Part shown: positions 22,572 through 54,139 of the stretch, piece by piece | Layout: every line of letters begins with the position of its first letter | How positions within the stretch are numbered: position 1 is the first letter of the stretch | NCBI GenBank assembly: GCA_024998755.1 | Contig: JACEUU010000003.1 | Location: 124,001-188,000 of the forward strand | DNA length: 64,000 bases | Reading direction: 5' to 3' | From: Vampirovibrio sp. | GTDB taxonomy: Bacteria; Cyanobacteriota; Vampirovibrionia; Vampirovibrionales; JAJTHC01 | The notes under the pieces: generated by a model | Databases searched by the model: none | Seen by the model: the letters and a program-made list of their open reading frames with translations, nothing else | Told to the model about the DNA's origin: nothing | Translations under genes and position numbers: made by a program

Positions 22572-22590
22572 TTCAAGAGGGGTGTTTGTT

Positions 22591-25479: not shown

Positions 25480-25718
25480 AAAGAGGCCAGTATACTTTCA
25501 TAGTAATAAAACAAATAATCATAATTCTTATTCTAGTATAGGTTACTCTTTTAGGGAAGACCAGCATTCAACCGTTTTTAACACACCGAAGAAACAGGAT
25601 ACCGTTCATTAGTTTAATGGGTAATAGCATCCAAATTTGCTTAAAAATGCTATAGTAATATTATCGTTATGTTCACAATCCTGTTATCTCTTTTTTGTTA
25701 GAAAGGATGTTTGCCCTT

Positions 25719-26387
25719 ATGAACTTGCAAGCATTAATTGTACTTACCTTAGTGGCTTCTATGCTAATTGGTACGGTAGTCATGGTATTCAGCACAGGTA
25801 CACCAGAAGCAACAACACCTACTGCACCTAGCCATTCTTCCCCTGCGGAAGCAGGTACGACTACTCCCGCTTCGTCTTCCTATTCCCCTGTAGCTGGGCA
25901 AGAAGAATCTGGGTTTGAGCGGTTAACCCTCATTCACAAAGGCTACTTAGCCCCCAATTTCAAAGCAACCGACGCCACTGGTGCACCTGTTTCATTAGAA
26001 CAATACACAGGTAAGCACGGGTTAGTAGTGGTGTTTTACCAAGGGGAATTCTGTTCCGTTTGTGCAGCACAATTGGCTGGTATACAAGCAAAACTGTCAG
26101 AATTTAAGGCAAAAGGTGTACACGTTATTGCTGTAAGTGCTGATGAAAAAGCGGGTGCGTTAAAACGCAAAGGCGAAAGTGGCTTAACTTTCCCTGTTGT
26201 GCCAGACCCACAACACAAATTAATTAGTGCCTTTGGTGTAACTAACCATACCCGTGGCAACATTGCTTACCCAACCGTCTACTTTATTGATAAAAAAGGC
26301 AGAGTAGCCGATACCTTTGCAGATGACCAAATGCAACGCCTACAAGCCCCTGATATGCTAAAGCGTATTGATGCATTAAACCTTTAG
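25719..26387 (+). CDS. Membrane-tethered peroxiredoxin / thioredoxin-fold protein
   Basis: About 222 residues: an N-terminal hydrophobic anchor or uncleaved signal (ALIVLTLVASMLIGTVVMVF), a Ser/Thr/Pro-rich linker of about 45 residues, then an AhpC/TSA-Redoxin domain: APNFKATDATGAPVSLEQYT, VVVFYQGEFCSVC with a CSVC pair, VIAVSADEK, and the cis-Pro region NIAYPTVYFID. The active site CxxC resembles the thiol-disulfide type (TlpA/ResA-like) more than the PxxxTxxC of typical peroxiredoxins. The start at 25719 was chosen for its spacing from AAAGGA and because the membrane segment begins there. Monocistronic and divergent from the ATPase gene. Confidence 0.82.
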   Translation: MNLQALIVLTLVASMLIGTVVMVFSTGTPEATTPTAPSHSSPAEAGTTTPASSSYSPVAGQEESGFERLTLIHKGYLAPNFKATDATGAPVSLEQYTGKHGLVVVFYQGEFCSVCAAQLAGIQAKLSEFKAKGVHVIAVSADEKAGALKRKGESGLTFPVVPDPQHKLISAFGVTNHTRGNIAYPTVYFIDKKGRVADTFADDQMQRLQAPDMLKRIDALNL

Positions 26388-26541
26388 TCTATAACTTGGT
26401 AAACGACACACTTTTTAAGCTCCCCCTTTATTAAAGGGATTTTCAAGAGAATCCTTCAAGATACTGACCTTCTGTAACGTATACTCAATAGTAATCTATT
26501 CGTTTTAGTTACTATCCTTTATTTATAGGATTTTTGCCTAC

Positions 26542-29427
26542 GTGTCTTCCTTACCTGAACACTCATCGTTACCAACTGAACCAGCCAGTCAATCGGAAAG
26601 TTCATCGAACTTGCCCGACTATTCAGCCTCTACTAATAACACCTTAAAACAAGGTGCACTTCAAGTTAGCAGTGCTTGGGAAACCTTTGTTGACAATACG
26701 TCCTTAGAAACATTAGCACAATCCCCATTGCCAGAAGCAGAGAAAAACCAGTCCTTTTCTTCGCAACAGGTTACATTAGCAACAGAAGAAGAGCAATTAA
26801 CTGAAGAACAGCAATGGCAGGCTATTCAACAAGACGCTTGCCACCTCTTGGAACGTGCCTTACTGCTTAATTTTAAAGGTCGTTACAAAGAAGCCTTTGA
26901 TTTATTAGAACAAGCCCAAAAAACCATCCCTAAAAACCAACCCAGCCCAATGCTATTAAGGGTTCAAGCGGAATTAATATGGCAACGCTACCTGTTTAAT
27001 CCTGAAACAGAACGGTCTCAAGCCATTCGGCGGTTAAACGAATTAAATGAACGGGTTCAATCTGTTTATCAGCGGGTGCAAACGGCGGAAATACGATCAA
27101 TTATTTTGCACTATAAAGGCAGAATACTTTATGAGCAAGGCGTTTTTGGACAAGCCGTTCGGCTATTTAAAGAAGCTCTTTCCTTTTGCCAACCCGATAA
27201 ATTACAAGCCGCTAGAATTATGGATAGCTTGGCGGTTTACTATGAACAAACAGGTAATTTTTCACAGGCAAGCCAGTTGTATCGGCAATCTGTTCGGGTT
27301 AAACAGCAGGATGCTCCGCTTTTTGAGCAGGCTATTACCTATCAATTATTTGGCAGAATGTGCTTGATTATTGAACAACTAGAAGAAGCTCAACGGCATT
27401 TAGAAAGAGCCTTAGCCATTACTAGCGAACTAGATGACTATCGGCGGGTGGCTTCGTTAAAAAACGATTTAATTAAAATTTCGGTGTTAAGCAACCAGTT
27501 AGGCAAGGCTGAACAATTAATTGCAGAAGCAGAAGACAAACACAGCCAGCAAAAATTATGGGCTCAGTATGGTACAACCTTACTTTATAAAACGTATCTG
27601 TTATTTCTTCGGCAAGAAACGGAACAAGCCTTTAATATGGTGCAAGAATTAGTACTGCCGCTGTTTGAAGACTATCCTCAAGAAAAAGGGTTTGGTATTG
27701 CTTATCGGCTTATTGGGGCTATACACAACGTATTTGGGCGTAAACGCCAAGCCTTGGAAGCCATGGGTGAATCTATCACTATTTTTAAACGCCAAGGTAG
27801 GCAAGAAGAACTAGCCAAAACCTATTTTGAACAAGCCAAGCTTTATGTAGAAATGAACCGTAAAACATTGGCGGAAGAAAGCTTGCTTCGAGCCTTAAAA
27901 ATTGCAGAACAAAAAAGCTTGATGTTCCTTGTTCGCCCCATTGAAGAAGAACTGTACGCCCTGGCCCCAGAACGCTGGGAAGTACTAACCGACAGACGTG
28001 CCAAGCATCTACCCTTGTTTGAATCAGAACGCGGGTTGGATATCACCACCAGTAGCACCTTTAAAACAACCCCCTTGCCTTTCCAACTTTCTTCTTTGGA
28101 CGCATTGGATAACACCTTAGCAGCAGAAGCAGGCAACAACTTATTGCAAGGTTTTGATAGCAAAGCCTTACTTTCTCTACTACGTTTAGGCCACGTTATT
28201 TCTTCAGAACGAGATTTAGACAGTATTTTAAACATTGTACGGGAAGAAACCGTTAAAGCACTGGATGCTGAACGCTGTACCGTGTTTGTTTACGATAGAG
28301 AAACCAACGAACTTTGGAGTAGAGTGGCTTCAGGCATTGATGGGCATGAAATTCTTCGGATTCCAGCCAACACCGGTTTAGCGGGTTACGTTTTAAAATT
28401 GGGGGAAATACTCAATATTCCCGATGTATACGCAGACCCTCGCTTCAATAAAGAAGTCGATAGAAAAACAGGCTATAAAACCCGCAACTTACTTTGTATG
28501 CCCATTAAAGACAGAAACGGCGATTCTATTGGCGTACTGCAAGTGCTAAACAAACAAGTGGGTGCCTTCGGAAAATCTGACGAAGAATTACTAATGGCTA
28601 TTTCCGCTACAGCTAGTATTACCTTTGAAAATGCCATTATGGCTCAAGAACAAAAACGAGCCTTTGAAAGCTTCATTCGGACGCTTTCAAGCACCATAGA
28701 CGCTAGAGACCCCATTACCGCAGGGCATTCTGAAAGGGTTTCAGACTATTCACTGTTGGTGGGTGAAGAGCTACGGATGGTGCCTAATGATTTAGAGGCG
28801 TTAAAATATGCCGCTATGTTGCATGATATTGGTAAAATTGGGATTCGGGAAGAAGTGCTAACCAAAGACGGGCGATTGACAATTGATGAATATCTACATA
28901 TTCAGGAACACGCCAAGTTTACTTATGAAATTTTAAAACACATTCACTTCCCCAAGCATTTAGTCAACGTACCCCACATTGCCGCTACACACCACGAAAA
29001 AGTGGACGGTACAGGCTATTTCAGAGGGCTAAAAGGCGAAGAAATTCCACTTTCGGGTAGAATTGTGGCTTTAAGCGATGTGTTTGACGCCATTACTTCG
29101 CTTCGGCATTATCGTAGCCGTATGCCGTTTGATAAAGTACTTAAAATTATCCGTAAAGATGCGGGTACGCACTTTGATATTGAATGTGTGGATATGTTCT
29201 TCCGTGTGCCACTTTATCGTTTAGCCCAAGTGCTGGTGAAGGAACGACGGGTAAAAAAGGTTTCTGAAGTATCTTCGTTTGTTCGGTATATTGATAAAAG
29301 TGTTACGTTGAGTGAATTTGAAGCGTTACTGACCAAATCAGAACTAACCAAAATGGAAACCGAACTGAACAAAGTGTTTTCCGCTATTTATTACGTCCTT
29401 CCCACCATTGATGGTGATAGCTTATAA
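26542..29427 (+). CDS. TPR-GAF-HD-GYP-type signalling protein
   Basis: 961 residues starting with GTG. Order: unstructured Ser-rich leader (1-90), TPR-like helical repeats (about 95-460; for example SLAVYYEQTGNFSQASQLYR, YFEQAKLYVEMNRKTLAEE), GAF domain (about 553-703, with ILNIPDVYADPRFN), and a phosphohydrolase domain with the HDIGKIGI motif at about 760. HD-GYP enzymes degrade cyclic di-GMP, often under control of GAF or TPR inputs. The motif that should read GYP is GTGYFRGL at about 822, so the proline is replaced by Phe; the HHE-x-x-DGTG metal motif is kept. No membrane segment is seen, so it should be cytosolic. A small gene follows 13 nt later. Confidence 0.88.
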   Translation: MSSLPEHSSLPTEPASQSESSSNLPDYSASTNNTLKQGALQVSSAWETFVDNTSLETLAQSPLPEAEKNQSFSSQQVTLATEEEQLTEEQQWQAIQQDACHLLERALLLNFKGRYKEAFDLLEQAQKTIPKNQPSPMLLRVQAELIWQRYLFNPETERSQAIRRLNELNERVQSVYQRVQTAEIRSIILHYKGRILYEQGVFGQAVRLFKEALSFCQPDKLQAARIMDSLAVYYEQTGNFSQASQLYRQSVRVKQQDAPLFEQAITYQLFGRMCLIIEQLEEAQRHLERALAITSELDDYRRVASLKNDLIKISVLSNQLGKAEQLIAEAEDKHSQQKLWAQYGTTLLYKTYLLFLRQETEQAFNMVQELVLPLFEDYPQEKGFGIAYRLIGAIHNVFGRKRQALEAMGESITIFKRQGRQEELAKTYFEQAKLYVEMNRKTLAEESLLRALKIAEQKSLMFLVRPIEEELYALAPERWEVLTDRRAKHLPLFESERGLDITTSSTFKTTPLPFQLSSLDALDNTLAAEAGNNLLQGFDSKALLSLLRLGHVISSERDLDSILNIVREETVKALDAERCTVFVYDRETNELWSRVASGIDGHEILRIPANTGLAGYVLKLGEILNIPDVYADPRFNKEVDRKTGYKTRNLLCMPIKDRNGDSIGVLQVLNKQVGAFGKSDEELLMAISATASITFENAIMAQEQKRAFESFIRTLSSTIDARDPITAGHSERVSDYSLLVGEELRMVPNDLEALKYAAMLHDIGKIGIREEVLTKDGRLTIDEYLHIQEHAKFTYEILKHIHFPKHLVNVPHIAATHHEKVDGTGYFRGLKGEEIPLSGRIVALSDVFDAITSLRHYRSRMPFDKVLKIIRKDAGTHFDIECVDMFFRVPLYRLAQVLVKERRVKKVSEVSSFVRYIDKSVTLSEFEALLTKSELTKMETELNKVFSAIYYVLPTIDGDSL

Positions 29428-29440
29428 AGGTTTTAAAACA

Positions 29441-29632
29441 ATGATGATGATGAGTTCCCCAGAAGCCACCCCGCCTAATGCCAACGCTGTTAGCTGGAAT
29501 TTAGATGAATTTAACAAACTAGCTGCCCGTGCAGATGCTGAACCTCAAAGGGTTTTAGCCGCTACAGCGTTGTACCAAGCCAAGCTGATTAATTTTTCTA
29601 TGTTTAAAGATTTACTCAGCTTAAAAGATTAG
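29441..29632 (+). CDS. Small hypothetical protein
   Basis: 63 residues beginning with four consecutive ATG codons. The body (VSWNLDEFNKLAARADAEPQ, then helical AATALYQAKLINFSMFKDLL) is amphipathic and predicted helical; no family recognised. AAAGG lies 10 nt upstream, and the gene is 13 nt after the HD-GYP-type gene, so it is probably co-transcribed and perhaps functionally linked. The longer frame from 29408 overlaps the previous gene and is rejected. Confidence 0.6.
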   Translation: MMMMSSPEATPPNANAVSWNLDEFNKLAARADAEPQRVLAATALYQAKLINFSMFKDLLSLKD

Positions 29633-29730
29633 TTTTTATCTTGGTATTCTGTGCGTTGAAGCATTGTATTTTAGGGGCTAACGGTGTAGTGTAAAGTAAG
29701 GTTCACCCACAATAAGCACCTATATAACGA

Positions 29731-30972
29731 ATGACCGCTTTAAATAACGCAAGCCCAACAATCACTGCTTTTTTATCCCAACTGCCTGCCACTGTTTCCC
29801 TAGAACAGCAGGGCAACGTTTGTGGTGTTCAGCCACAAACAATGGAAGACCTACAGGGTATTCTAACCCTGCTGGCTCAGCCTGAATTTGCCTCAATCAA
29901 AGTGGCTCAAAGTGTATTAGATACTAATATACTAGAAACAACCAACAAGTTTTGGTTAGATACGACCGTAGCAACGGCAACTATCTACAACCACAAGCCG
30001 CAAGATTTTGTTGTTACGGTTGGTACAGGAAACACATTAGAAGCGATAGAATTACGCCTTCAAGAGACTAACCAAACCCTAGCGTTTACGCCCGCTACCG
30101 CAGATAGTTCCAGAGCCATTGGAAACCTACTCGCCAATAATACGCTTCCTTTAGAAGCCAACATTCGCAGAAGCACCTTAAATGAACTGGTGCTAGGATG
30201 TTCCGCTTTTAGCCCCGAAACGGGTGAATTAGTTTCGTTTGGTGGCGAAGTCGTCAAAAATGTAACGGGGTATGATGTTCAAAAATTTTTAGTGGGGCAT
30301 CAATACGCTTTAGGTGTGGTCAGTAGCGTAACCCTCAGAACAACCCCCTTGCTACCTGTTAAGGGCTACTTTGAAAGCATTTTCCAAACAGAAGCAACTT
30401 TATTTACCTGTCTGCAAGCGTGTTTAACCAAGCCCAGTTTGTGGATGATCCATCTACTTGTTAAGCCGCACACTGAAGGGTTTTGCCTTTCCGTTGGGGT
30501 TGAAGCACCTTCTGTAGCATTATTGGAAGCTTGGCAAAGCACCTACTTTCCAAACAGTGATTTTCAAGAAGCCCCCCCCCTTGATACCGCCCCCCTATTA
30601 GCCATTGAAATAGCCCTACCATTAGGGGAAAGTGGCTGGCAAAAAGTGGTCAATCATCTCATTCCCTCTCTCAACCCCGATAGTTGGCAGTGGCTACCCG
30701 CCTGTGGCGTATTGCAAGTTTTTTATCAGCAAACCCCACCCACAATAGAGACACTAGCACCACTTTACAAACAAGTGGCTATCATTGGTGGTAGCGTCCG
30801 ACTAATTGAGGCTGATGGTAGCTTAAGCAAACTTTCGGCACAAATTTATCGGTTACAATGGGAAATGATGCCCTCGGCATTGGAAAGTCAGCATCATCAG
30901 CTGAAGCAACAGCTAGACCCTAACAATCAATTTTATAGCCCGTTTTACCTTGCCCCGTTAGAAAATGGTTAA
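29731..30972 (+). CDS. glcE: Glycolate oxidase FAD-binding subunit GlcE-like
   Basis: 413 residues of the FAD_binding_4 / glycolate oxidase E type. Visible are the FAD-binding pattern TVGTGNTLEAIELRLQETNQ, DSSRAIGNLLANN, GCSAFSPETGELVSFGGEVV followed by KNVTGYDVQKFLVGHQYALG, all typical of GlcE. It is followed after 3-6 nt by glcF, but the catalytic GlcD subunit is not in this window. GlcDEF oxidises glycolate (or D-lactate in related complexes) and passes electrons to quinone. Confidence 0.88.
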   Translation: MTALNNASPTITAFLSQLPATVSLEQQGNVCGVQPQTMEDLQGILTLLAQPEFASIKVAQSVLDTNILETTNKFWLDTTVATATIYNHKPQDFVVTVGTGNTLEAIELRLQETNQTLAFTPATADSSRAIGNLLANNTLPLEANIRRSTLNELVLGCSAFSPETGELVSFGGEVVKNVTGYDVQKFLVGHQYALGVVSSVTLRTTPLLPVKGYFESIFQTEATLFTCLQACLTKPSLWMIHLLVKPHTEGFCLSVGVEAPSVALLEAWQSTYFPNSDFQEAPPLDTAPLLAIEIALPLGESGWQKVVNHLIPSLNPDSWQWLPACGVLQVFYQQTPPTIETLAPLYKQVAIIGGSVRLIEADGSLSKLSAQIYRLQWEMMPSALESQHHQLKQQLDPNNQFYSPFYLAPLENG

Positions 30973-30978
30973 TTCGTG

Positions 30979-32325
30979 ATGCCAACCTCATTAGACCGCT
31001 TAACTGAAAAACTACTGCCCACTGAAACCACCAACGTAGCGGTGGCTGAAGACCACTTGGCTACCCTGCTAAAGGCGTGTATTCAATGTGGTATGTGTCT
31101 TTCAGCCTGCCCTACTTACACAGTAACAGGGTCTGAAGCGGAAAGCCCTCGAGGACGCATTCATTTAGTTGATTTATGGCAACAAGACCGATTAACCGCC
31201 GAGGCGATTGCCCCGCATTTAGATCAATGCTTGGGGTGCAGAAGTTGCGAAACAGCTTGCCCTTCCAACGTGCAGTATGGCGAACTACTCAATACCAGCC
31301 GATACCTTGTTAAAAAAGAAACGCCTTCGCATTGGTTTGCCACCGTTAAACGCTGGTTGCTAGCAACTGTTTTGCCTTCGCCTACGTTATTAATGCTAGC
31401 CCGCTTTGGGGCGTTACTGTATAAAACCACTGGCATTGCTTGGCTGGCAAAACGAACTGGTGTTTTATCCCTATTACCGCCTTCTTTACAAGCCATGGAA
31501 CAACTTTGCCCCCCTGTCGGTTGGAACGACGCCCCTTCATTGGAAGGGGGACAACGCTTCGGCAAGAAAAATGCACCGTTGGTTTTAATGCCTGTTGGGT
31601 GTGTAATGAATACCTTTATGGCGGATATTCATCATGCGACCATTCAAATGATTGTAGCCTTAGGCTTTCAAGTGCTGATTCCTAAATTACCGTGTTGCGG
31701 TGCATTGGCACACCACGCAGGGGAATTAAGTCTTTCCCAAAAACAAGCCCTAGCCACATTGCAGGCATGGCAAGCATTAAAAGCTCGTACTATACCCATT
31801 GTAATGAATTCCGCTGGGTGTGCGGCTCATTATAAAGAACTCGCCCATCTCTTTCCGAGTGATTCCCCCTTGCACGCCGTAGCTGAAGCGTTTAGCCAGC
31901 AAGTGGTAGATGTGCATGAATGGTTGTTGCCACGAGTAGATAGATTAGCAAAGCAACTAAAAGCTAACAATTTGGATGATAAGCGGGTGAAGGCGATTTA
32001 TCAGCCTGCTTGCCATTTATATCATGCCCAAGGGGTGCAAACGGAACCGATGGCAGTGCTTTCCGTTTTGCCAGCTGTTGAGTGGGTACCGTTGGCGGAT
32101 GCTTCGTTATGTTGTGGCAGTGCGGGGATTTATAACATTGAGCAACCATCGTTAAGCCAACAGGTGTTGGATGCCAAACTAGATGCCATTGAAGCGACTG
32201 GGGCTACTTTGCTAGCCGTTGCCAACCCAGGGTGTTATTTGCAATTGCGTAAGGGCTTGCAACAACGAGGTATTTCGTTGGAAATTCTCCACCCCATGCA
32301 AGTATTAGCTCGGTATTTGGGATAA
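30979..32325 (+). CDS. glcF: Glycolate oxidase iron-sulfur subunit GlcF-like
   Basis: About 448 residues. Two N-terminal 4Fe-4S ferredoxin motifs (CIQCGMCLSACPTY and CLGCRSCETACPSN), followed by a membrane-associated linker and two CCG domains (LPCCGALAHHAGE and SLCCGSAGIYN), the family layout of GlcF/heterodisulfide-reductase-D-type proteins. It passes electrons from the flavin subunit to the quinone pool. A GTG precedes the ATG at 30979 by one codon (30976); either may be used. Coupled to glcE. Confidence 0.9.
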   Translation: MPTSLDRLTEKLLPTETTNVAVAEDHLATLLKACIQCGMCLSACPTYTVTGSEAESPRGRIHLVDLWQQDRLTAEAIAPHLDQCLGCRSCETACPSNVQYGELLNTSRYLVKKETPSHWFATVKRWLLATVLPSPTLLMLARFGALLYKTTGIAWLAKRTGVLSLLPPSLQAMEQLCPPVGWNDAPSLEGGQRFGKKNAPLVLMPVGCVMNTFMADIHHATIQMIVALGFQVLIPKLPCCGALAHHAGELSLSQKQALATLQAWQALKARTIPIVMNSAGCAAHYKELAHLFPSDSPLHAVAEAFSQQVVDVHEWLLPRVDRLAKQLKANNLDDKRVKAIYQPACHLYHAQGVQTEPMAVLSVLPAVEWVPLADASLCCGSAGIYNIEQPSLSQQVLDAKLDAIEATGATLLAVANPGCYLQLRKGLQQRGISLEILHPMQVLARYLG

Positions 32326-32428
32326 AACAGGGCTTATTTAAAAACTCATTTATTTGGACAAAGTGCTATCAAAAATGACTACGTTCTTATAACCACTATG
32401 TCATAATGAACAAAAAAAGGAAAGCAAT

Positions 32429-32500
32429 GTGTCCAACCATGAAAAATTACTAAAAAGAATTCAAGAACTAAAAGAAATCAACCGTTTATTGGGTCTATAG
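32429..32500 (+). CDS. Putative 23-residue peptide
   Basis: GTG start behind AAGGAAA; the peptide MSNHEKLLKRIQELKEINRL... is a single charged helix and ends in the left edge of the repeat at 32497. It may be the truncated N-terminus of a longer protein cut by that repeat; a toxin partner for the HicB gene downstream is one possibility, but unsupported beyond position. Confidence 0.3.
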   Translation: MSNHEKLLKRIQELKEINRLLGL

Positions 32501-32626
32501 TCTTTTAAAAATTTTCTGACTCTATTTTATTTTAGAGGCGGATTATATCCGCCCTCTAAGAGATTGACAGAAATGGGCGGATGCAATCCGTCCCTACAAG
32601 TTCACTAATGATTTAAAATACTATAT
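32497..32626. repeat. MITE-like repeat with GGCGGATTATATCCGCC core
   Basis: Left end TATAGTCTTTTAAAAATTTT is nearly the same as the flank of the repeat at 5763; the right end (read inwards) ATATAGTATTTTAAATC is a weak inverted match. The interior holds two palindromes, GGCGGATTATATCCGCC and GGGCGGATGCAATCCGTCCC. It lies between the 23-codon ORF and hicB. Confidence 0.6.
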
Positions 32627-32650
32627 AACGCAACAAGGAATCTCATCAAG

Positions 32651-33025
32651 ATGACAAACCATAAGACAATTGACTATTATTTAGACTTACCATGGTCAAT
32701 CTCGTGTGAATACTCGGATGACACCATAGAGCCTTGGACTGCTAGAGTAACAGAACTACAGGGTTGTATGTCTCATGGGAAAATACCCCTAGAAGCCATT
32801 GAAGGATTATTTGAAGAAGCATTGCCCCTTCACTTGAAAGGGTTACTTGCATCTAACAATGCAATTCCCGAGCCCATCAAACCCGAAGACTGCAAGGGGG
32901 AAATTGCCTACAGAACGACTCCTAGCAAACATTATCAATTGCTAAGGCTAGCCAATAGTTTAGGCAAAAGCCTCAACAAAGTGCTAGATGATGCAGTTAT
33001 CTCATATTTGGATTCAATGGCGTAA
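32651..33025 (+). CDS. HicB-like antitoxin
   Basis: 124 residues. The N-terminal half is a degraded-RNase-H-like HicB fold (WSISCEYSDDTIEPWTARVT, ELQGCMSHGKIPLEAIEGLF, with the E-L-x-G-C and A-x-x-x-x-x-E-A-L pattern); the C-terminal KHYQLLRLANSLGKSLNKVL looks like a ribbon-helix-helix DNA-binding tail. HicB normally neutralises the RNase toxin HicA, but no HicA gene (about 60-80 residues) is found on either side. It may be an orphan antitoxin or a regulator. It converges with the ROK gene, 3 nt apart. Confidence 0.75.
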   Translation: MTNHKTIDYYLDLPWSISCEYSDDTIEPWTARVTELQGCMSHGKIPLEAIEGLFEEALPLHLKGLLASNNAIPEPIKPEDCKGEIAYRTTPSKHYQLLRLANSLGKSLNKVLDDAVISYLDSMA

Positions 33026-33028
33026 AAG

Positions 33029-34030
33029 CTACCGCTTCAATGCCAAACAAGCACCACCCACTAAACCAGCCCAGTTACCCAATTCGGCTTCCACAATGGG
33101 TGTATTTACTATTGGCGAAACCACCCGCTCCCGAACCATATCCGTCAGCAATGGGAAATCCACAAACTTCGCCATACCACCACCAATAATCATCAATTCA
33201 GGGTCAAAAATATTGAGCAAGCCCGCTACCCCACTGGTAACGTGCATTAACCATTCTTTGTAAACCCGCTTACCTAGCGGATTACCCGCTTTTAACGCAG
33301 CAATACCATCATGTGAATTAATATCGGTAATACATTTATTACCTAAAATAGATTGTGCTTCAGGGGTGTTTGATTGTTCAAACAATTCTTTTTGAAGGGT
33401 ATACCGATACCCAGACCCACTGGCATAAGCTTCCCAGCTACCAAACATACCTTTCAGTTGAATGGGACGCTGTTCAAAACTAATAGAAGCATGGCCCACC
33501 TCCGTGGCGGAAAAATTAGCCCCACGCAGTAGTTTACCGTCAATAATAGCACCACCGCCAACGCCAGTTCCTAGCGTTACCATTACAACGTTTTGCTTGC
33601 CTTTGCCAACACCCAACACTTGTTCGCCCACAATAGCGGAATTGGCGTCGTTTTCAACGTGAATACTACCCACTGGGCGACCCAACGCCAATGCCACATA
33701 CCGACCAATGGAATACGGATGCTTATGCACCGCTTTTAAGTTGGCACTTGAGCCTAAAATCTGACCCGTTTCCGTGTTAACCACCCCTGCTGTAGAAATG
33801 CCAATGGGTAAAGTCAACGCTTGTTCAGGCGAAGGGCAAACCGCCGTTACTAAATCTGCAATAGCTTGAATAAACGCCTCATGGGTTTCAGGGGTAGGTA
33901 CTTCAACCGTTTTTAAGGTTTCAAGCAAAAAATTACGGGTATCTACCAAGCCAGCAACCATCTTAGTACCACCAATATCAATACCAATAGCTAACGATTG
34001 TTTAGTAAGGGCTGTTGAAGTCATCATCAT
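33029..34030 (-). CDS. ROK-family sugar kinase (glucokinase-like)
   Basis: 333 residues, opening with three ATG codons. ATP-binding motif AIGIDIGGTKMVAGLVD at the N-terminus, HVENDANSAIVGE, GTGVGGGAIIDGKLLRG and the EVGHASISF region place it in ROK. Bacterial ROK kinases phosphorylate glucose, N-acetylglucosamine, N-acetylmannosamine or fructose; no neighbour fixes the substrate. The classical ROK zinc motif CxCGxxGC is absent here (the equivalent region reads ERPIQLKGMFGSWEAYASG), which is notable because most bacterial ROK glucokinases keep it. Confidence 0.88.
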   Translation of the reverse strand: MMMTSTALTKQSLAIGIDIGGTKMVAGLVDTRNFLLETLKTVEVPTPETHEAFIQAIADLVTAVCPSPEQALTLPIGISTAGVVNTETGQILGSSANLKAVHKHPYSIGRYVALALGRPVGSIHVENDANSAIVGEQVLGVGKGKQNVVMVTLGTGVGGGAIIDGKLLRGANFSATEVGHASISFEQRPIQLKGMFGSWEAYASGSGYRYTLQKELFEQSNTPEAQSILGNKCITDINSHDGIAALKAGNPLGKRVYKEWLMHVTSGVAGLLNIFDPELMIIGGGMAKFVDFPLLTDMVRERVVSPIVNTPIVEAELGNWAGLVGGACLALKR

Positions 34031-34105
34031 GGTTGTTTTATCCTACACTATCGTTGCGAAGTCTATTTTCGTTACACTAGAAACGCAAGGTTTCTGCTAA
34101 TATGG

Positions 34106-35056
34106 ATGCTAGTTTACCAAAAACAGTGCAAAAAAGGTAGCCTCTCTTTGAAAACCGTTACACTTTGCCAGCCTAGCCCCACCCACTGGCTTTGGCAACC
34201 CGAAACCCAACAATGGCTACCCGCCGATGCTCTACCCTTTGAAGCCGTGCACGGTTTAATGTTAGGCTATAGTGTTTTTACCACCTTTAGAACACCCCAA
34301 AGCCCTTGCTGGTTACGGGTTCACTTACAACGGGTAGCCCAACACGCCAAAACCCTTCAATTGAAACCATTTGCTCCCATCAATTTAGCATTTGAAAGCC
34401 TTTCACCTATTTTGGAGACGAACCCTTCAGCCGTGTTTCGGCTTACCGCCTTACTGGCGGGCGATGCCAGCCTGTTACAGAAAAACCAAGAAGCCACACC
34501 CCTTCCCACCACATGGCTGTTGCATCGGCGGGCTGAAGGGGTTGAGCCGTTTACCAACGTGCCACAAGCCCCCCATTTGCGTCTAAAAACGGTCGATTTT
34601 CAGCAGGCGTTACCACAGTTAAAACATGGCGCATTACTGCCTGCTTGGTGGGTTCGTAGGCAAGCGTTACAGACCGATGCTTCGGTGGATGAAGTCATCT
34701 GGCAAACCCCAGCGGGGGCATTATTGGAAACGACGACGGGCAACCTGTTTTGCTTCATGGCGGATGGGTCTATTCGCACGGCGGAAGAGGCGTTGGTGTT
34801 GGGTGGGGTTACCCGACAGCAGGTGAAGAAGGTTTGCCAACGGATGGCGTACCCCTTGATTGAGCGGGCGGTTTGTTGGAAAGCGGAAGCCCCACAGGTG
34901 ATGGGGGCGTTTACAACCAACAGTGTTCGGGGGTTGGTGTCGGTAGCTTGTATTAACGGCGTGCCGTTACCGTGGGACGAAAAAACAATAGCCAAGTGGC
35001 GTACCGTGTACACTGCTTGGCTAGAATCATTAGAATTAGCAGGCTGTTATACCTAG
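34106..35056 (+). CDS. Class IV PLP aminotransferase (PabC / IlvE / DAT type)
   Basis: About 300 residues with the fold-type IV pattern: GLMLGYSVFTTFRTPQSPCW near the N-terminus (start-of-barrel G-x-F-x-T region with an Arg for the carboxylate), LRLKTVDFQQALPQLKHGAL with the PLP lysine, DEVIWQTPAGALLETTTGNL (E-x-x-x-x-N signature) and GVTRQQVKKVC. Closest role is 4-amino-4-deoxychorismate lyase for folate, but branched-chain or D-amino-acid transaminases share the motifs. The ATG at 34106 adds 14 poorly conserved residues; a TTG at 34148 behind AAAGGT is an alternative start. Divergent from the ROK gene. Confidence 0.82.
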   Translation: MLVYQKQCKKGSLSLKTVTLCQPSPTHWLWQPETQQWLPADALPFEAVHGLMLGYSVFTTFRTPQSPCWLRVHLQRVAQHAKTLQLKPFAPINLAFESLSPILETNPSAVFRLTALLAGDASLLQKNQEATPLPTTWLLHRRAEGVEPFTNVPQAPHLRLKTVDFQQALPQLKHGALLPAWWVRRQALQTDASVDEVIWQTPAGALLETTTGNLFCFMADGSIRTAEEALVLGGVTRQQVKKVCQRMAYPLIERAVCWKAEAPQVMGAFTTNSVRGLVSVACINGVPLPWDEKTIAKWRTVYTAWLESLELAGCYT

Positions 35057-35059
35057 TTA

Positions 35060-35180
35060 TACCCAATTTAAAGTTTGAATAACGTAAAATCTTGAAACGG
35101 GACGACACGCAGGTTGGTCTCTGTACCAGCCCGCTTAGATGGAATCCACAAAACGCTATTTAATCTCTGAAAGGGTTGTA
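35060..35180. mobile_element. MITE, 121 bp, TA-flanked
   Basis: Diverged inverted ends TACCCAATTTAAAGTTTGAA and TACAACCCTTTCAGAGATTA (read inwards), each followed by an ATAACGT/ATAGCGT motif, flanked by TA. Same family as the elements at 17176 and 63579 but more degraded. It sits between the class IV aminotransferase and the end of the 1068-residue protein gene. Confidence 0.6.
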
Positions 35181-35188
35181 GACATTTT

Positions 35189-38100
35189 TCAACTTGTCAA
35201 TTGCACCGATGTTTTAATTGATTCGATATGTTCATTAAGCTTTCGTAAGTTTGCAATAGCTTGTTGAAGCTTTTGTTTCTTAGGATCATTCTGAGCTAAC
35301 GCTTCGGTGGCTTCTTTCATGATTCCCAGCAAACCTGAGGAGGTAATAGTCCTTGGACGCAGTTTTTTAGTATTTCTATGTTCTTCAATGACTTCATGAA
35401 AGTGAAGTTCAGCAAAGTGTTGAATCAAGGGGAATTCAATACCATCTTGGAATCCTTTTGGGGTCAGCAAGCTATTGTTACTGCTAGGAGACTTGTCTAA
35501 ACCAGCCACATCCGCAATAGAGTCTAAGATTTTAAATAATGCTAACTCGCTATCCCGAGGAGACTCGTGGTAAAGTTTTGCTGTATTGGTCTTTCTTCCA
35601 CCCCAACCTAAGTTGTCATTTAAGTTATTAATGACAGCACCAATCGCTTGTTTTTTCGTTGCAATGCCAGCCTCTAGCCATGTTGTGTCAGAAACAAAGT
35701 TTGTTTTAACGCCAAAATCGGTCAATGTGGATTCTTTCGTGGCTAATTCTAATGCTCGTTTCACAATTTGTTTAGGAGCAGTCATTTGGTCTGTGGGGTT
35801 AAACTGTGCAGGGTTGGCGTGTAATTGGCTTAGGGCTTCCTGTAAATGAGGCAATATCAAGGCTTTGTTTTCTGGTGTTGCAAAACCATCCAATAGGGGA
35901 TGCTCAAACAATGCGTCGAGCTTTGGGTTTTCTCCTACATCCTCAAAAGCCGTCTGTAAAAATTTGTTGTCAGCTTCAAACGTTTTGGGTATTTGTAATA
36001 CACCCGGCTTAAGTTCTGCAGACACTTCTACGCCTGGATGTTTTACCAAAGCTTCAAAGTATTCTGTTAGCAACTGACGTTCTTGTGGTTTTAGTTCTTG
36101 GTAATTTTCAGGGTTTAGCAAATGTTGAATAAGGTATGTTCTGACAGCAAAAGTCTTCTCTTTTTCATCACTCCTTACCTCAAAACTAGACAAAACTTTT
36201 TTTATATCACCCATTTCAAAAGGAGTCTCCCCCTCCGTATGGTTGGAATTTACTATATCTTCTACTAGAAGCTTTTTTAACCCAGTCGGAGGTTCTTCTT
36301 TTGAAGCATCCAACAACGCCACGATTTGCTGACCTACGGCGTTGGTTTTTTCGGTAGATGGTTTATTCAACTGGGTTGCCAGCTCCGCCGATGCTTTTTC
36401 CCACTGTTGATTTATTTTTTTGGTTAATGCTATTATTTCGTTACTATACTGTATAGGTTCCCCATACCCATTAGTTGTTCTTCCTTCATAAAGTTTTTTT
36501 ATATAGTGCCCTGGTTGATTAACCTCTCTGAAATTACGATAAACCAGTTCCACTAAACTAACAATTTCTTCTTCAGCAAAGGATATATTTTTATATTTTT
36601 CATTGTTTTTACTAGGAGGATGTAATATGTCAAAAACCATATGTTCTAACTCTCCCTTAGAATTTTTTTTGAGGTTGGTGGCATCTCCATCTAGTCCTAG
36701 TATAATAATGCCTTTTAATTTTAATTCAATAGTTTGATTAACTAACGATTCCACAAAAGTGTAGAAATCTTCTGCTGTCTTGATTGCTTCAGTGCCTTCG
36801 ATAGTGTTGTTGGCAGGATCTTTAGAAGAAAAATGCTTAGTAGGGTTCATTAAGGGCATTAAAGTTCCGAAAACATCAGAATTACCTACTTTAACAGGTA
36901 CAATATGAGAAAAGTCATGGCTAGCGACACCAACATCTCTCCAACCTTGTAAAGCCTCCGACTCTCTAAAAAGATGATAGTACCGATTACTAGCTAATGC
37001 AAGGGCATATTCGGGACCATCAGGAGTTAATCTAACTTTATAAATGTGTTTTGTTCCTCCACAAGCGTATTTTTTCACTTTCTGTACAAGCCCATTCAGT
37101 TCAATCGTAAAATGTCCCGAATTAAGACAATTACTATATTCTTTTCCAAAATTATCAAGCTTGTTTTTAATAACATCGTCAGAAATTATTGCTAGGTTTG
37201 CTACGGTGGGTAGTTCAGTTTCAATATTTTTTCGATATACGTCGTACAGCTTTCCCGTTAGCTTCAAATTTTCTATTCTGTTCTTTTCTAACTTATCAGC
37301 ATCTTCAGTTGCAAATTGTTGTAATAACTTAAGCTGTTCAAGTGGGTCTACAAGGTCTCTACCTCCTATAACCCTATAATTTTCACTCGAATATCTATCA
37401 TTAATAACATCTGTCAACGCCTGTAATTGTTGAACTACTAATTCGTCTGACGTACCACCCCCATTATGAGGGGGTTTTATTTTGACTTTCGTGAGTTCGA
37501 GTAACTCTTCAAAAGATTTGTCATTCAATTCATCTATGAGAACGCCTGCACTAAGCAACGCCTGCTTAAGTTGAGTCTGCAATTGCGGAGCTTTATCTTG
37601 ATGATTAGCAATAGCTTCTAGTTGTTCTGTAGCCGTTGTTGCTTTTCCAGTTGGTATCAGTTTTTTGTAAAGATTTTCCACAGCAAGCTCTGCATCTCTG
37701 CGAACGGGAGGGTTTTTTTGTCGTTGTAACTCTTTTATTTTTTCTCCTGCTAATGTTAGCAATTCAGTATAGCTTTTATCTATCAAGTCTACATCAGTAG
37801 CTAAACCGCTAACTTTTAAAGCACTAGCTAATTGTTTTTTAAGGTTCTCTGTTTCTGTACTTAACTTATTTGTTTGCGTCTGTAACTCTTGCTTCATTTT
37901 TTCCACATGAGCTTGAACCGCAGCAATCAGTGCATCGCCCGTTTTTGCCTTGTCCGCAGGATCGGTTAATAAACCTTGCAAAATTTTCGTTGTGCCACTT
38001 GATAATGTTTCAATAATTTGAGGGGCTTTATTTATCTCTTTTTTAAGTGCTTCCGCTAATTTTTCAGCGGTATCGCCTGTTTTACCCGTTGTATCGCTAA

Positions 38101-38395
38101 TAATCTTTAACGTTTCTTTTTCCGCTTGCTTTTTCCCCACAAAAAACGTGCCAATCGCCAACAATACCCCCGCCATAGAACCCGCTACGGGCAACAACCA
38201 CTGGTTACCCTGCTTCGTTGTTACAGCAGCAGAAGCGACCGCCAGTTTCGGCTCTTTCGCTTTCACAAACGTATCTTCCGTTGTTTTTCGGGGAACATTG
38301 TTCGCTACTTTCAGTGGATGCTTAGGCTGAGCGGTGGCAGTGTTAGAAGCGTTTAACTTAAAAGCTGGCGTAGTAGTGTTATTGAAGGTCGTCAT
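35189..38395 (-). CDS. Large membrane-anchored coiled-coil protein with kinase-like core
   Basis: 1068 residues; not recognised as a known family. A Thr/Lys-rich leader (1-65) is followed by one membrane helix (LLPVAGSMAGVLLAIGTFF at about 67-85), then about 330 residues rich in Glu/Lys/Gln with coiled-coil character. The region about 440-620 looks like a divergent protein-kinase or aminoglycoside-phosphotransferase fold: a Gly-rich loop ACGGTKHIYKV, a following strand EYALALA, a hinge-like FGTLMPLMNPT, and LGLDGDATNL...MVFDI, comparable to catalytic D-x-x-x-x-N and metal-binding D motifs. The ATP-binding lysine is not evident. The C-terminal 440 residues are helical. I chose ATG 38395 because AGAGGA lies about 10 nt upstream. 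The 51-residue extension from 38548 is rejected. An exported or envelope-anchored effector or scaffold is possible. Confidence 0.65.
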   Translation of the reverse strand: MTTFNNTTTPAFKLNASNTATAQPKHPLKVANNVPRKTTEDTFVKAKEPKLAVASAAVTTKQGNQWLLPVAGSMAGVLLAIGTFFVGKKQAEKETLKIISDTTGKTGDTAEKLAEALKKEINKAPQIIETLSSGTTKILQGLLTDPADKAKTGDALIAAVQAHVEKMKQELQTQTNKLSTETENLKKQLASALKVSGLATDVDLIDKSYTELLTLAGEKIKELQRQKNPPVRRDAELAVENLYKKLIPTGKATTATEQLEAIANHQDKAPQLQTQLKQALLSAGVLIDELNDKSFEELLELTKVKIKPPHNGGGTSDELVVQQLQALTDVINDRYSSENYRVIGGRDLVDPLEQLKLLQQFATEDADKLEKNRIENLKLTGKLYDVYRKNIETELPTVANLAIISDDVIKNKLDNFGKEYSNCLNSGHFTIELNGLVQKVKKYACGGTKHIYKVRLTPDGPEYALALASNRYYHLFRESEALQGWRDVGVASHDFSHIVPVKVGNSDVFGTLMPLMNPTKHFSSKDPANNTIEGTEAIKTAEDFYTFVESLVNQTIELKLKGIIILGLDGDATNLKKNSKGELEHMVFDILHPPSKNNEKYKNISFAEEEIVSLVELVYRNFREVNQPGHYIKKLYEGRTTNGYGEPIQYSNEIIALTKKINQQWEKASAELATQLNKPSTEKTNAVGQQIVALLDASKEEPPTGLKKLLVEDIVNSNHTEGETPFEMGDIKKVLSSFEVRSDEKEKTFAVRTYLIQHLLNPENYQELKPQERQLLTEYFEALVKHPGVEVSAELKPGVLQIPKTFEADNKFLQTAFEDVGENPKLDALFEHPLLDGFATPENKALILPHLQEALSQLHANPAQFNPTDQMTAPKQIVKRALELATKESTLTDFGVKTNFVSDTTWLEAGIATKKQAIGAVINNLNDNLGWGGRKTNTAKLYHESPRDSELALFKILDSIADVAGLDKSPSSNNSLLTPKGFQDGIEFPLIQHFAELHFHEVIEEHRNTKKLRPRTITSSGLLGIMKEATEALAQNDPKKQKLQQAIANLRKLNEHIESIKTSVQLTS

Positions 38396-38701
38396 TATGG
38401 TTAATCCTCTGTTATTAAAAATGCTAGTTTTGCACACATAGGTGTATAAAACCAGCCTGCTTTTATTTTGTGCTAATAAAGGTAACACCAAACAGCATTT
38501 CCGCACAAAGTAACAGTCTTTCAAAAAATAAACACCCTTATGCAACAATTTGTCAACTCTTTTTTTGTTTTTGCGGTTTTACGCTTATGTTCGGTTTATA
38601 CTAGCCTATTAGTAATGCCTTATCCCTCTAAAAAAAAAGTAGCTGCTCTCTGCACTGCTTTCCACCATTCCCCTAACCAATCCAAGGACAACCTCATCAC
38701 C
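38396..38701. other. 306-bp divergent intergenic region
   Basis: Separates the genes of the giant coiled-coil protein and RlmB and must hold promoters for both. The right part is open in the rlmB frame (from 38540) but is hydrophobic and Phe/Leu-rich, unlike the adjacent protein, and has no good ribosome binding site. Nothing else recognised. Confidence 0.4.
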
Positions 38702-40630
38702 ATGATGGCAATGAAAACCTTCAGCCCTTCTTCCCGCAAAGGACGCAAAACCGCTAGTGGCGGTGGTAACAAATCTTCCTTCGGCGATAAAAAATCCACA
38801 TTCGGCGGATTCAAACCCACCCGTAGCGGTGGTTCTAGCAGTTCCTCTTCTTCCAGCCGCTACGGCAAAAAACCGTTCGGCACAGCGGATAGAGTTTCTT
38901 CCCCCTACCAAGACCGTGGGTCAGCCAGACCGAGAACTTCCGACGGCAGTGCTTATTCCGCTTCCGCTGAACGCACGGCGTATGCCCCCCGTACCACCGA
39001 AGGTGGCTATAATCGGTCTGAACGCCCAGCCTATGCCCCACGGACTGAAGGTGGTTACAATCGGTCTGAACGCCCAAGCTACAACAACGATAGACCAGCC
39101 TCATCCGAACGCCCTGCATACAGCCAACGAGCTGAACGCCCTCACTACGATAGAAAATCTTCCGCTATCGGTGGCTCTTCTTCCTACAACCGAAGCGAAC
39201 GCCCAGCTTATGCTCCACGCACCGAAAGTGGGTATAACCGCTCTGAACGCCCTAGCTACAACAACGATAGACCAGCCTCATCCGAACGCCCTGCATACGC
39301 CCCACGCACAGATCGTCCAGCCTATGCCCATCGAACTGAAGGCGGATACAACCGGTCTGAACGTCCTAGCTACAACAACGATAGACCAGCCTCATCCGAA
39401 CGCCCTGCGTACGCTCCTCGAACTGAAGGTGGGTATAACCGGTCTGAACGCCCTAGTTATGGCGAAAGACCCACATCGGGCGGATACAATAAATCGGAAG
39501 GTCGGTCTTCTTCGTATTCATCTGACAAACCTGCCTACAAACCAAGAACCGAAGGCGGGCGTCCCTCGTTTGACCGTGGAGCGAAACCTGCCCCTCGGTA
39601 CGAACGCAGTGGTTCACCTAGAAATAGTGCGTTTGCAAAAGACCGTGAAAGAGACAGCGAAGGCGGTTCGTTTGTGGCAGACTTAGTCAACTCTGAAGCG
39701 TTTTCCGCTGAAGCCAGAAAGCTAGAACAAGCCACGCAAATCCATGAAAAATTAGCAGAAGGCGGTGCTTACACCCTTTACGGTAAACACGCAGTGTTGG
39801 AAGTATTACAAAGTGCCCCTTCTCGGGTACAAAAAGTATTGGTCATGGAAGATGCTCAGCCAGACAAGCGGATTAATAAAATCACGGCGTTGTGCGAAAG
39901 TTCCGGTATTTATTGGCAATTGGTGCCTAAAGCAAAATTAGATACCATGATGACTTACTTGGCAGATGCTACCACCCATCTTGAAGATGGCGTGGAAACG
40001 GGGCATCACCAAGGCGTTATCGCCATTGTTACGGCTCAACCTTTGTTAAGCGTGGAAGAATTGTTAGATTCCGCCCCAGCCAACAATGCCCCTTGCTTGA
40101 TTTTTGCTTTAGATGAAGTAACTGACCCTCGTAACGTGGGTGCTTTGCTTCGGGTGGCAGATGCTGCAGGTGCTAAAGGCATGATTATTGGCAAACACCG
40201 TAGTGCAGCCTTGAACGCCGTGGTTTCTAAAACCGCTGCGGGTGCAGACCACTGGATGCCCATGGCTCAAGCAACCAACCTGACCCAAGCCTTAGAACTT
40301 TGCAAAGCAGCTGGTTTTTGGATTGTAGGTTCGGCTTGCGAAAGCACGGGTGTGGATGCCAGAGGCTATACCACCAACGTTAAGCCGGTTGATTACACTG
40401 CCATTGATTACAACGCCCCGATTGTGGTGGTGTTGGGTAATGAAGGTGAAGGCTTGCGTCCGACTATTTTGAAACAGTGTGATTTCTTGGCTAACATTCC
40501 GATGTTGGGCAAGGTGCAATCGCTCAACGTTTCTACGGCGGGTGCAGTGTTGGCATTTGAAGTGGTGAAGCAACAACAATTGGCGAAAAAAGCCGTTGTA
40601 GCCCCATTGAATGCCCCAACTGGCGAATAA
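38702..40630 (+). CDS. rlmB: 23S rRNA 2'-O-methyltransferase RlmB-like with long repeat tail
   Basis: SpoU/TrmH-family SAM-dependent methyltransferase. From the ATG at 38702 the protein is about 642 residues; the family is usually about 250. The last 300 hold the normal enzyme: substrate-binding LYGKHAVLEVLQ, then motif 1 DEVTDPRNVGALLRVADAAG, motif 2 VVLGNEGEGL and motif 3 MLGKVQSLNVSTAGAVLAFE (trefoil knot). The first about 330 residues are disordered, rich in Ser, Arg, Tyr, Pro and Gly, with repeated SERPAYAPRTEGGYNRSERP-type units (about 38991-39480). The frame is open further upstream to 38540, but the low-complexity basic start MMAMKTFSPSSRKGRK looks like the natural N-terminus. A terminator hairpin follows. 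Confidence 0.87.
   Translation: MMAMKTFSPSSRKGRKTASGGGNKSSFGDKKSTFGGFKPTRSGGSSSSSSSSRYGKKPFGTADRVSSPYQDRGSARPRTSDGSAYSASAERTAYAPRTTEGGYNRSERPAYAPRTEGGYNRSERPSYNNDRPASSERPAYSQRAERPHYDRKSSAIGGSSSYNRSERPAYAPRTESGYNRSERPSYNNDRPASSERPAYAPRTDRPAYAHRTEGGYNRSERPSYNNDRPASSERPAYAPRTEGGYNRSERPSYGERPTSGGYNKSEGRSSSYSSDKPAYKPRTEGGRPSFDRGAKPAPRYERSGSPRNSAFAKDRERDSEGGSFVADLVNSEAFSAEARKLEQATQIHEKLAEGGAYTLYGKHAVLEVLQSAPSRVQKVLVMEDAQPDKRINKITALCESSGIYWQLVPKAKLDTMMTYLADATTHLEDGVETGHHQGVIAIVTAQPLLSVEELLDSAPANNAPCLIFALDEVTDPRNVGALLRVADAAGAKGMIIGKHRSAALNAVVSKTAAGADHWMPMAQATNLTQALELCKAAGFWIVGSACESTGVDARGYTTNVKPVDYTAIDYNAPIVVVLGNEGEGLRPTILKQCDFLANIPMLGKVQSLNVSTAGAVLAFEVVKQQQLAKKAVVAPLNAPTGE
38991..39480 (+). repeat. 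Imperfect tandem repeats within rlmB
   Basis: A DNA unit coding YNRSERPSYNNDRPASSERP recurs at about 39052, 39231 and 39345; the last two are 114 bp (38 codons) apart and nearly identical in DNA, with shorter partial units between. Copy number is likely variable. Confidence 0.8.
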
Positions 40631-52512: not shown

Positions 52513-52762
52513 ACTAACTATCATCCATTCAATTAAAGAAAACAACTTGTTTGACCGAAATGTTTTAATAATGGTTAGCACGTTTTAATTAACGGATGGT
52601 TTTTATGCCTGTAGTAAGCTTTTAAATTAATGGTAGCTTAACCCATGGGTACGGTAATTTAAAACCATAAACCGTGCCACTAATACTCTCTCTCTAAATT
52701 CTTCATGCTCTTCTTTGACTGACTTTTAACTGTTAAAACAACCTAGGGGACTTTAATTTTTT

Positions 52763-54139
52763 ATGATGATGATGACTTCTTCTTCAAATTCTGGTAATGG
52801 GGCTTCTTTTCAACTATTAGGTAATCAGGCTGAAAAAACCCTATTAGCGGGTAAAACGGCTCAAACAGCTAGTAACCCTGTTGTAAAAGGCGGTCGGTTA
52901 TTAGAAGGGTTTACCCCTGAAACCACGGGTGTGGTAACGGGCAAGCCCAGCCAACAAGCGTTTGATTTTATTTCTTCAACAGATGGAGCTAGTACAGAAA
53001 AAACCACCAAATCGACCTCTTTTTCTGCTGGGTTTGAACGTCTAAGCGTAAAGCAGTTGCCTCGTAAAAAACCAGAATTCACCGCTGGTGCAGGCTCAAA
53101 AGATATGTTAATTGCCGCTTGGCTAACCCAGTGGATTACGACGGGCTTGGCAAAAGGTTCGCTAACTGAAAACCATTTACTTCCGCTAAAACAGGAAATT
53201 TCTGGCTATTTAGGCGTTAGTATTGGTACGGTTCAAAATGCTATTCGCTATGTGGAAGATGATGGCTTAGTAGAAAGCAAACAACGTATTGGTACACTCA
53301 TTCGAGGGGCTTCTGCTAATAGCACCACGGGTGAAACCACGATGGATGAAAGCCGTGTTCGTAAACAAACCTCTAAACGAGATACTGCGGTAGTAGCGTT
53401 ACAACAGTACTTTGTAAAAGCAAATTTTGAAATTGGGCAAGCGTTGCCGGCTTCACGGGAATTAGCGAAGGTGATTGGGTCTGCCCCTAATACCACCCGT
53501 TTGGCGTTAGAATTTTTGACTGTTCAAGGGCTACTTTCTAGCAATAATGCACGGGGTAAAAAAGCAAATTGGATTTTACAAGCCATTCCCAACTTGGAAG
53601 CAAACCAATTAGGTTCACAAATGGTGGTACAAACTGATACTTTGATTGACCAGCTAGAACGTGATTTGAAGCAGTTAATTTCTGATGATTATGAAGTGAA
53701 CATGAAGTTGCCTTCGCATTTGGAATTGGCGGAATCGCTCAAGGTTTCAATTAAAACGGTGCATGATGCCATGCAACGCTTGGTAATTCAAGGGTATGTG
53801 CATTCCAAACGAGGACGGTATGGTACGTTTGTAAGCCGTATTCCTAGCAACCTTATTAACGTTTCTGCTATTGAACAATTGTTTGTTCCTGCGGAAGAGC
53901 ACGCTGAACCAGAGGCGGCTTTTTACCACTATCAGCAGGCTGAAGAACAATTGCGGGCGTTGTTGAAAACGCAGTATAGCGTAGGGCAACAGTTACAACC
54001 CATGCCTGAATTGGCTACCCAGTTGGGCGTTTCTATGAATTCTGTTAGGCGGGCGTTGCAAACGTTGGCGGAAGAAGGCTTGGTTTCATTCAAACGGGGT
54101 CGCTTTGGCGGGACTATTGTAGAAAACATTCCTCAATAG
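52763..54139 (+). CDS. Regulator-like protein with four tandem GntR-type winged helices
   Basis: 458 residues beginning with four ATG codons. After a Ser/Thr-rich, probably disordered leader (1-105) come four GntR-like winged-helix units at about 112-182, 206-272, 290-362 and 385-455. Each shows the pattern of a first helix, a short loop with LP, the LA-x-x-L-G-V-S-x-x-T-V recognition helix, a second long helix ending in D/Q-G-L/Y-V, and a wing with GRxGTxV: units read EISGYLGVSIGTVQNAIRYV, ELAKVIGSAPNTTRLALEFL, ELAESLKVSIKTVHDAMQRL and ELATQLGVSMNSVRRALQTL. No effector, dimerisation or transferase domain is present. It probably binds DNA with several contacts. Flanked by long intergenic regions and a strong terminator, so monocistronic. 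Confidence 0.85.
   Translation: MMMMTSSSNSGNGASFQLLGNQAEKTLLAGKTAQTASNPVVKGGRLLEGFTPETTGVVTGKPSQQAFDFISSTDGASTEKTTKSTSFSAGFERLSVKQLPRKKPEFTAGAGSKDMLIAAWLTQWITTGLAKGSLTENHLLPLKQEISGYLGVSIGTVQNAIRYVEDDGLVESKQRIGTLIRGASANSTTGETTMDESRVRKQTSKRDTAVVALQQYFVKANFEIGQALPASRELAKVIGSAPNTTRLALEFLTVQGLLSSNNARGKKANWILQAIPNLEANQLGSQMVVQTDTLIDQLERDLKQLISDDYEVNMKLPSHLELAESLKVSIKTVHDAMQRLVIQGYVHSKRGRYGTFVSRIPSNLINVSAIEQLFVPAEEHAEPEAAFYHYQQAEEQLRALLKTQYSVGQQLQPMPELATQLGVSMNSVRRALQTLAEEGLVSFKRGRFGGTIVENIPQ

Follow-up and report, generated by a model that had tools for sequence, protein, structure and literature searches.

Four GntR-type winged helices in one chain: a conserved protein of Vampirovibrionia and its candidate two-block operator

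A protein of 458 amino acids, encoded in the window (the whole 64-kb stretch of Vampirovibrio DNA that was analysed), consists of four GntR-type winged helices strung behind a disordered leader. By computation, the four units are conserved among orthologues, and a two-block element with rigid spacing is found at the promoter of the gene itself in eight families and recurs in promoter-proximal positions before other genes. With a probability of roughly 0.6, judged from these sequence patterns, the protein is a sequence-specific regulator whose four non-identical heads would jointly read an operator of about 40 bp and so control its own gene and a regulon. It would probably be a new kind of master switch, with roughly 20 to 40 other genes as putative targets. 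The features are listed in Table 1.

Table 1. Window positions of the four-winged-helix gene, its parts and the candidate operator
Feature	Position	Strand	Details
Gene, four-winged-helix protein, 458 aa	52763..54139	+	ORF exact from ATG to stop; orthologues
Leader, disordered and variable, residues 1-87	52763..53023	+	pLDDT <50; orthologue alignment
Conserved short segment preceding unit 1, residues 88-105	53024..53077	+	Orthologue alignment; pLDDT 87 at residues 91-100
Winged helix unit 1, residues 112-183	53096..53311	+	Recognition helix SIGTVQN; PF00392 35.2 bits
Winged helix unit 2, residues 203-277	53369..53593	+	Recognition helix APNTTRLA; wing degenerate; PF00392 26.9 bits
Winged helix unit 3, residues 291-362	53633..53848	+	Recognition helix SIKTVHDA; wing KRGRYGT; PF00392 47.4 bits
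Winged helix unit 4, residues 386-457	53918..54133	+	Recognition helix SMNSVRRA; wing KRGRFGGT; PF00392 50.4 bits
Two-block element, candidate autoregulatory operator, TTAGCACGTTTTAATTAACGGATGGTTTTTATGCCTGTAG	52575..52614	+	148 bp ahead of the ATG, within the 250 bp between ispE and the gene

The GntR model (Pfam: PF00392) matches four stretches of the protein, with a whole-protein E-value of 1.6e-41. The bit scores in Table 1 are for units cut out and scored singly, and against the gathering cut-off of 27 bits unit 2 misses by 0.1 bit. AlphaFold2, run with 24 aligned sequences, predicts a helix-helix-helix-strand-strand arrangement four times, with block pLDDT values mostly of 82-92, and pLDDT values below 50 for residues 6-87 and the linkers between units. 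An f6 orthologue with 38% identity has a predicted structure with the identical layout. The four tandem winged helices of the original prediction are found by Pfam as well as by structure prediction, and it is all four units, not fewer than three, that fold as such. The original prediction also gave each unit its own recognition helix and GRxGT wing. This is correct for the helices, but a GR(Y/F)G wing is present only in units 3 and 4, while unit 1 has KQRIGT and the wing of unit 2 is degenerate. Pairwise identity between units is 22-39%, with units 3 and 4 as the closest pair, yet every pair is related with a profile-profile probability of 98-99.9%. Thus the estimate of about one third identity and its explanation by an old internal amplification were right.

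Neither an effector domain nor any second domain was detected in the protein with Pfam or NCBIfam, as had been claimed. This includes the C-terminal effector-binding or oligomerisation domains of the family (FCD, UTRA, aminotransferase etc.), and the chain ends one residue past unit 4. The NCBIfam PdxR model covers the winged-helix part only, with 110.6 bits vs 320 required, and the PLP-dependent aminotransferase domain typical of MocR/PdxR proteins is not present. Where GntR family members have a single N-terminal winged helix, this protein has four units in residues 112-457 behind the disordered leader. Many genes of the home genome open with two to four consecutive ATG codons (MM..., MMMM...); examples are the regulator gene itself (window 52763), further window genes at 22591, 33029, 9788, 54597 and 60090, and the putative target loci L139, L147, L152 and L164.

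The four-unit gene is single copy in the home genome. A search with the orthologue alignment gave a match in 291 of the 382 genomes of the class, nearly all with one copy each, a count that includes at least one non-orthologue (in genome G136) and a few genes split at contig ends. The G136 match reaches 50.7 bits with unit 4 only and is probably an ordinary MocR protein. Two distant matches (L025 and L026) were rejected as orthologues, being ordinary MocR proteins. One-to-one orthologues with all four units were found in eight families of the class (f1-f3, f6 and f10-f13), of which f1-f3 form the window's order. The layout that the original prediction proposed to look for in other Vampirovibrionia is thus present, and the homologues share it instead of being ordinary GntR proteins with an effector domain. 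The protein is absent from the listed genomes of f4, f5, f7, f8 and f9. Outside the class, no relative was among the matches listed in a sample drawn from the whole phylum. Plasmids, phages and viral contigs contained no relatives of the four-unit protein, and a mobile or phage gene was rejected on these grounds. Chance or an assembly artefact was likewise rejected, as over 200 genomes carry orthologues with the identical layout. The nearest named record belongs to a Candidatus Melainabacteria MAG, isolate LacPavin.

Among 65 distinct orthologues, the full-length members keep all four units, mostly with about 65-76 residues each, and the linkers between the units are variable. In the alignment, the leader is shorter or missing in the f6 orthologues. 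Most orthologues outside f1 possess a further conserved C-terminal tail, F.W.(S/A).NP...Y, which the window's family has lost. Gene neighbours differ from family to family, and no conserved context giving a function was found.

The DNA-contact positions of the units were mapped from the contacts established for FadR-type winged helices. In some 64 sequences, most of these positions are kept at about 85-100% per unit; those matching Arg45 and Arg35 are variable. Unit 1 has the recognition helix SxGTxQ, with S, G, T and Q invariant at 95-100%, and unit 2 has xxNTxR, with N, T and R invariant at 95-98%. The helices of unit 3 (SxKTxH) and unit 4 (SxNTxR) are each near-invariant within their own unit as well, as would be expected if every head reads bases. 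Along the chain the contact residues alternate as GTxQ, NTxR, KTxH and NTxR, so that unit 1 resembles unit 3 and unit 2 resembles unit 4.

Besides the protein itself, the element upstream of its gene is conserved. It is bipartite, about 40 bp long and includes an imperfect inverted repeat, AGCA(C/T)AAAA...TTTTATGCT. When the window was scanned with a matrix made from 21 further sites in the home genome, the own-gene copy was the top match at 22.9 bits, the next reaching 8.9 bits; in the shuffle control one of 30 mononucleotide shuffles reached 19.9 bits. The same element is found upstream of orthologues in f1, f2, f3, f6, f10, f11, f12 and f13, where its form is TAGCA(A/C)... followed by TGTTTT(A/T)ATATAAA. 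The start-to-start spacing of the blocks is 21 bp in most families, 22 bp in f1 and f13 and 18 bp in f6, and the distance to the start codon varies widely among orthologues. A recognisable own-gene element is missing in many diverged f6 genera (L087, L088, L093-L104 in part).

We ranked the own-gene sites with a matrix built from 58 non-self sites of f2 and f3. In all nine f2/f3 loci the own-gene site came first among about 22,000-40,000 positions, and it ranked 1st to 4th in the f6, f10 and f11 loci, which were outside the training set. The f13 site ranked 8th, and f1 needs a matrix of its own. The f6 copy before the regulator gene shares its place with a sigma-70-like promoter (TTGATG-17-TATTAT) that it overlaps, suggesting that the regulator may repress its own gene there. 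A structured RNA in the leader was considered and rejected, since the element RNA folds no better than shuffles (z -0.12) and has no Rfam family match.

The home-genome consensus, drawn from 22 sites, is CTAGCACAAAA-N12-TKGKTTTTATRCTNNTA. It holds about 27 conserved bases and about 35 bits, and little is conserved outside of it. In the home genome, 42 matches with up to three mismatches were found vs 2 for the reversed control; with the spacing off by 1 bp, there were 4 vs 0 at up to two mismatches (not three). A pattern taken from the own-gene element has many matches in 12 genomes of the order and almost none when reversed, and across 18 genomes of the order the f3-type pattern has 141 matches vs 0 for the control. 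Since the own-gene site was the starting point of the patterns used to collect the genome-wide sites, the enrichment is circular in part, and the matrix scans are not wholly independent of that site either; the reversed and off-spacing controls and the unselected positions answer the circularity.

In f6 genomes a weaker, A-rich variant of the element occurs above control. In lineages that lack the protein there is no consistent enrichment; with three mismatches, one f5 genome has 17 vs 4 matches and one f4 genome has 18 vs 7. The sampled f4 genomes, though larger, have zero matches to the f3-type pattern. Two genomes, G002 (85% complete) and G008 (92% complete), contain element sites although the protein was not found in them, which could be due to assembly gaps. 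Co-loss of protein and element in G002, considered because the f3-type pattern has 0 sites there, was rejected, as the f1 pattern gives 20 vs 0 for the control. In G008 a variant of the element, CTATCACAAG...CCTTAATATTGTTTTTATA, is present six times or more in nearly identical form (e.g. C62:18557-18589, C68:5521-5553 and C71:1510-1542), which suggests an expanded, duplicated target gene family.

In the home genome, nearly all sites that match well fall between genes, with a same-strand gene starting 40-250 bp downstream. Ten putative target proteins or their N-terminal pieces, eight from the home genome and two from f6, had no Pfam match. The putative targets are enriched in N, Q, S, T, P and G within their first 60 residues, with a fraction of 0.47 vs 0.37 in 43 window genes (p = 0.0002), and putative targets from further genomes of the order are enriched as well (p = 0.003). 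The f6 putative targets include two proteins with extended N-termini that resemble, by eye, a glycogen synthase and an M16 peptidase, as well as a 62-aa CopG-type protein encoded directly upstream of the regulator gene. This ribbon-helix-helix gene precedes the four-headed gene in L077 (9107-9370) and in L069 and carries a good element copy of its own, which reads TAGCAC...TTGTTTTTATTTAAATA in L077. An N-terminal tag resembling (S/N)F(K/T/G) is common to the putative targets in L168, L170, L172 and L183, also of f6, where it once precedes an apparent glycogen synthase; this tag could be a targeting signal.

Two other regions of the window were noted. A 1119-aa protein (35189-38548, minus strand) has a disordered-looking N-terminus similar in flavour to those of the putative targets, and the matrix scan of the window found no element copy upstream of it. 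Inverted copies of a two-ORF transposase (183 + 149 aa) with identical translations lie at 16737-17866 on the minus strand and 19174-20303 on the plus strand; like a composite transposon, they flank an ORF of 249 aa with no known function at 18354-19103.

In the mechanism which we propose, one chain would lay its four heads along the two-block site. Units 1 and 2 would occupy one arm and units 3 and 4 the other, an assignment made because of the inverted repeat in the element and the alternating head types. The regulator would control its own gene and 20-40 putative targets in the window's order, mostly without known domains. The four-in-one chain may thereby take the place of the dimer that ordinary GntR proteins form via their ligand domain. 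From the patterns described above we infer binding of the element by the four-headed protein, the lie of the chain along both blocks and the direction of control. A long composite operator, one of the options in the original prediction, is supported by the two-block element before the own gene and dozens of others, with the protein as its putative binder. More tentative, and in our judgement somewhat short of an even chance, is the wider version of this proposal, in which a single-chain tetravalent reader of the form A-B-A'-B' on an inverted bipartite operator would be a master regulator, kept in much of the class, of a large set of proteins without known domains and with disordered, possibly targeting N-termini.

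The main rival to a four-headed reader is an alternative sigma factor. The element would then be its promoter, or an activator-dependent promoter for another protein, and the four-headed protein would be merely a member of the regulon that regulates something else. Such an origin would fit an element that is directional, rigidly spaced and placed before same-strand genes, with a second block resembling a -10 box (TATGCT, TATATA, TATAAA), and it would fit the sites in G002 and G008, where the protein was not detected. We nevertheless consider it unlikely, as about 27 conserved bases and about 35 bits are much for a sigma factor alone; such a content exceeds the usual need of a sigma factor or of a single dimer. 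Moreover, a spacing of 18 bp in the f6 own-gene element vs 21-22 bp elsewhere would be unusual for a sigma factor, the f6 element has a separate canonical -35/-10 pair, and the lineages with the element are the lineages with the protein. Another DNA-binding protein might read the element instead, for example the CopG-type protein of f6 (RHH_1, 41 bits), given its adjacency and its own element copy in G035 and G020. This appears improbable, since f1-f3, the families with the strongest element, showed no such gene next to the regulator gene, and ribbon-helix-helix sites are usually short repeats rather than 40-bp bipartite ones.

Two further readings concern the protein itself. The original prediction had also considered that the chain bridges or wraps DNA as a nucleoid protein, and such a nucleoid-associated or DNA-bridging role, with low sequence preference, would suit four DNA-binding units on flexible linkers in a protein that has no ligand domain and is encoded once in nearly every relative where it occurs. 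This part of the prediction found no support and is very improbable, because the candidate sites are specific, small in number and close to promoters, and the recognition-helix residues differ between units while being near-invariant within each, which is a mark of specific reading. An RNA-binding chain similar to the four winged helices of SelB is suggested by the best Foldseek match, the SelB C-terminal fragment 1lva (E 8.8e-7). The TM-scores over the chain, 0.14-0.22, show that only single units and the string-like arrangement are alike, and the next Foldseek matches are GntR DNA-binding domains, of which AraR superposes at 1.8 Å over 65 columns. With a GntR sequence profile, wings and recognition helices of the DNA-reading type and no EF-Tu-like domain, the protein is extremely improbable as an RNA binder.

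Since several families of a little-understood class have the gene almost without exception, and in single copy, the proposed four-headed regulator may be a core controller of the biology of these bacteria. The candidate operator and a ready list of putative targets, mostly of unknown function, make a dark part of the genome approachable.

The winged-helix unit is common to the four-unit protein and the GntR regulators (FadR, HutC, YtrA, AraR and MocR/GabR/PdxR). These have one N-terminal winged helix and a C-terminal effector or oligomerisation domain, whereas the four-unit protein has four winged helices and nothing else. Classical GntR regulators dimerise via the effector domain, and their dimers read short palindromic operators. 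The heads of the four-unit protein are of the GntR type, but by the defining features of the family it does not count as a classical GntR regulator. The C-terminal region of SelB (1lva) is likewise a string of four winged helices, but SelB binds SECIS RNA and has an EF-Tu-like GTPase, whereas the four-unit protein is GntR-type by sequence and has no GTPase according to Pfam and NCBIfam. Full-text literature searches found no paper on tandem or multiple GntR domains and nothing relevant on Vampirovibrionales regulons. In the related Cyanobacteria, PlmA has a GntR-type winged helix; it is described as a GntR-like regulator and not as a four-unit chain (PMC5083789). The GntR domain itself is already known; as far as our searches show, no description exists of the four-in-one architecture without an effector domain, of its conservation throughout the lineage or of the composite operator that it probably has. 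BusR is a tetrameric GntR regulator. In a tetrameric GntR regulator of Agrobacterium fabrum, four winged helices act together (PMC7797058). Tetrameric GntR regulators bring together four identical heads from four chains, whereas the four-unit protein has four different heads on one chain, and it would, if the proposed reading is true, be the first described single-chain tetravalent GntR-type reader.
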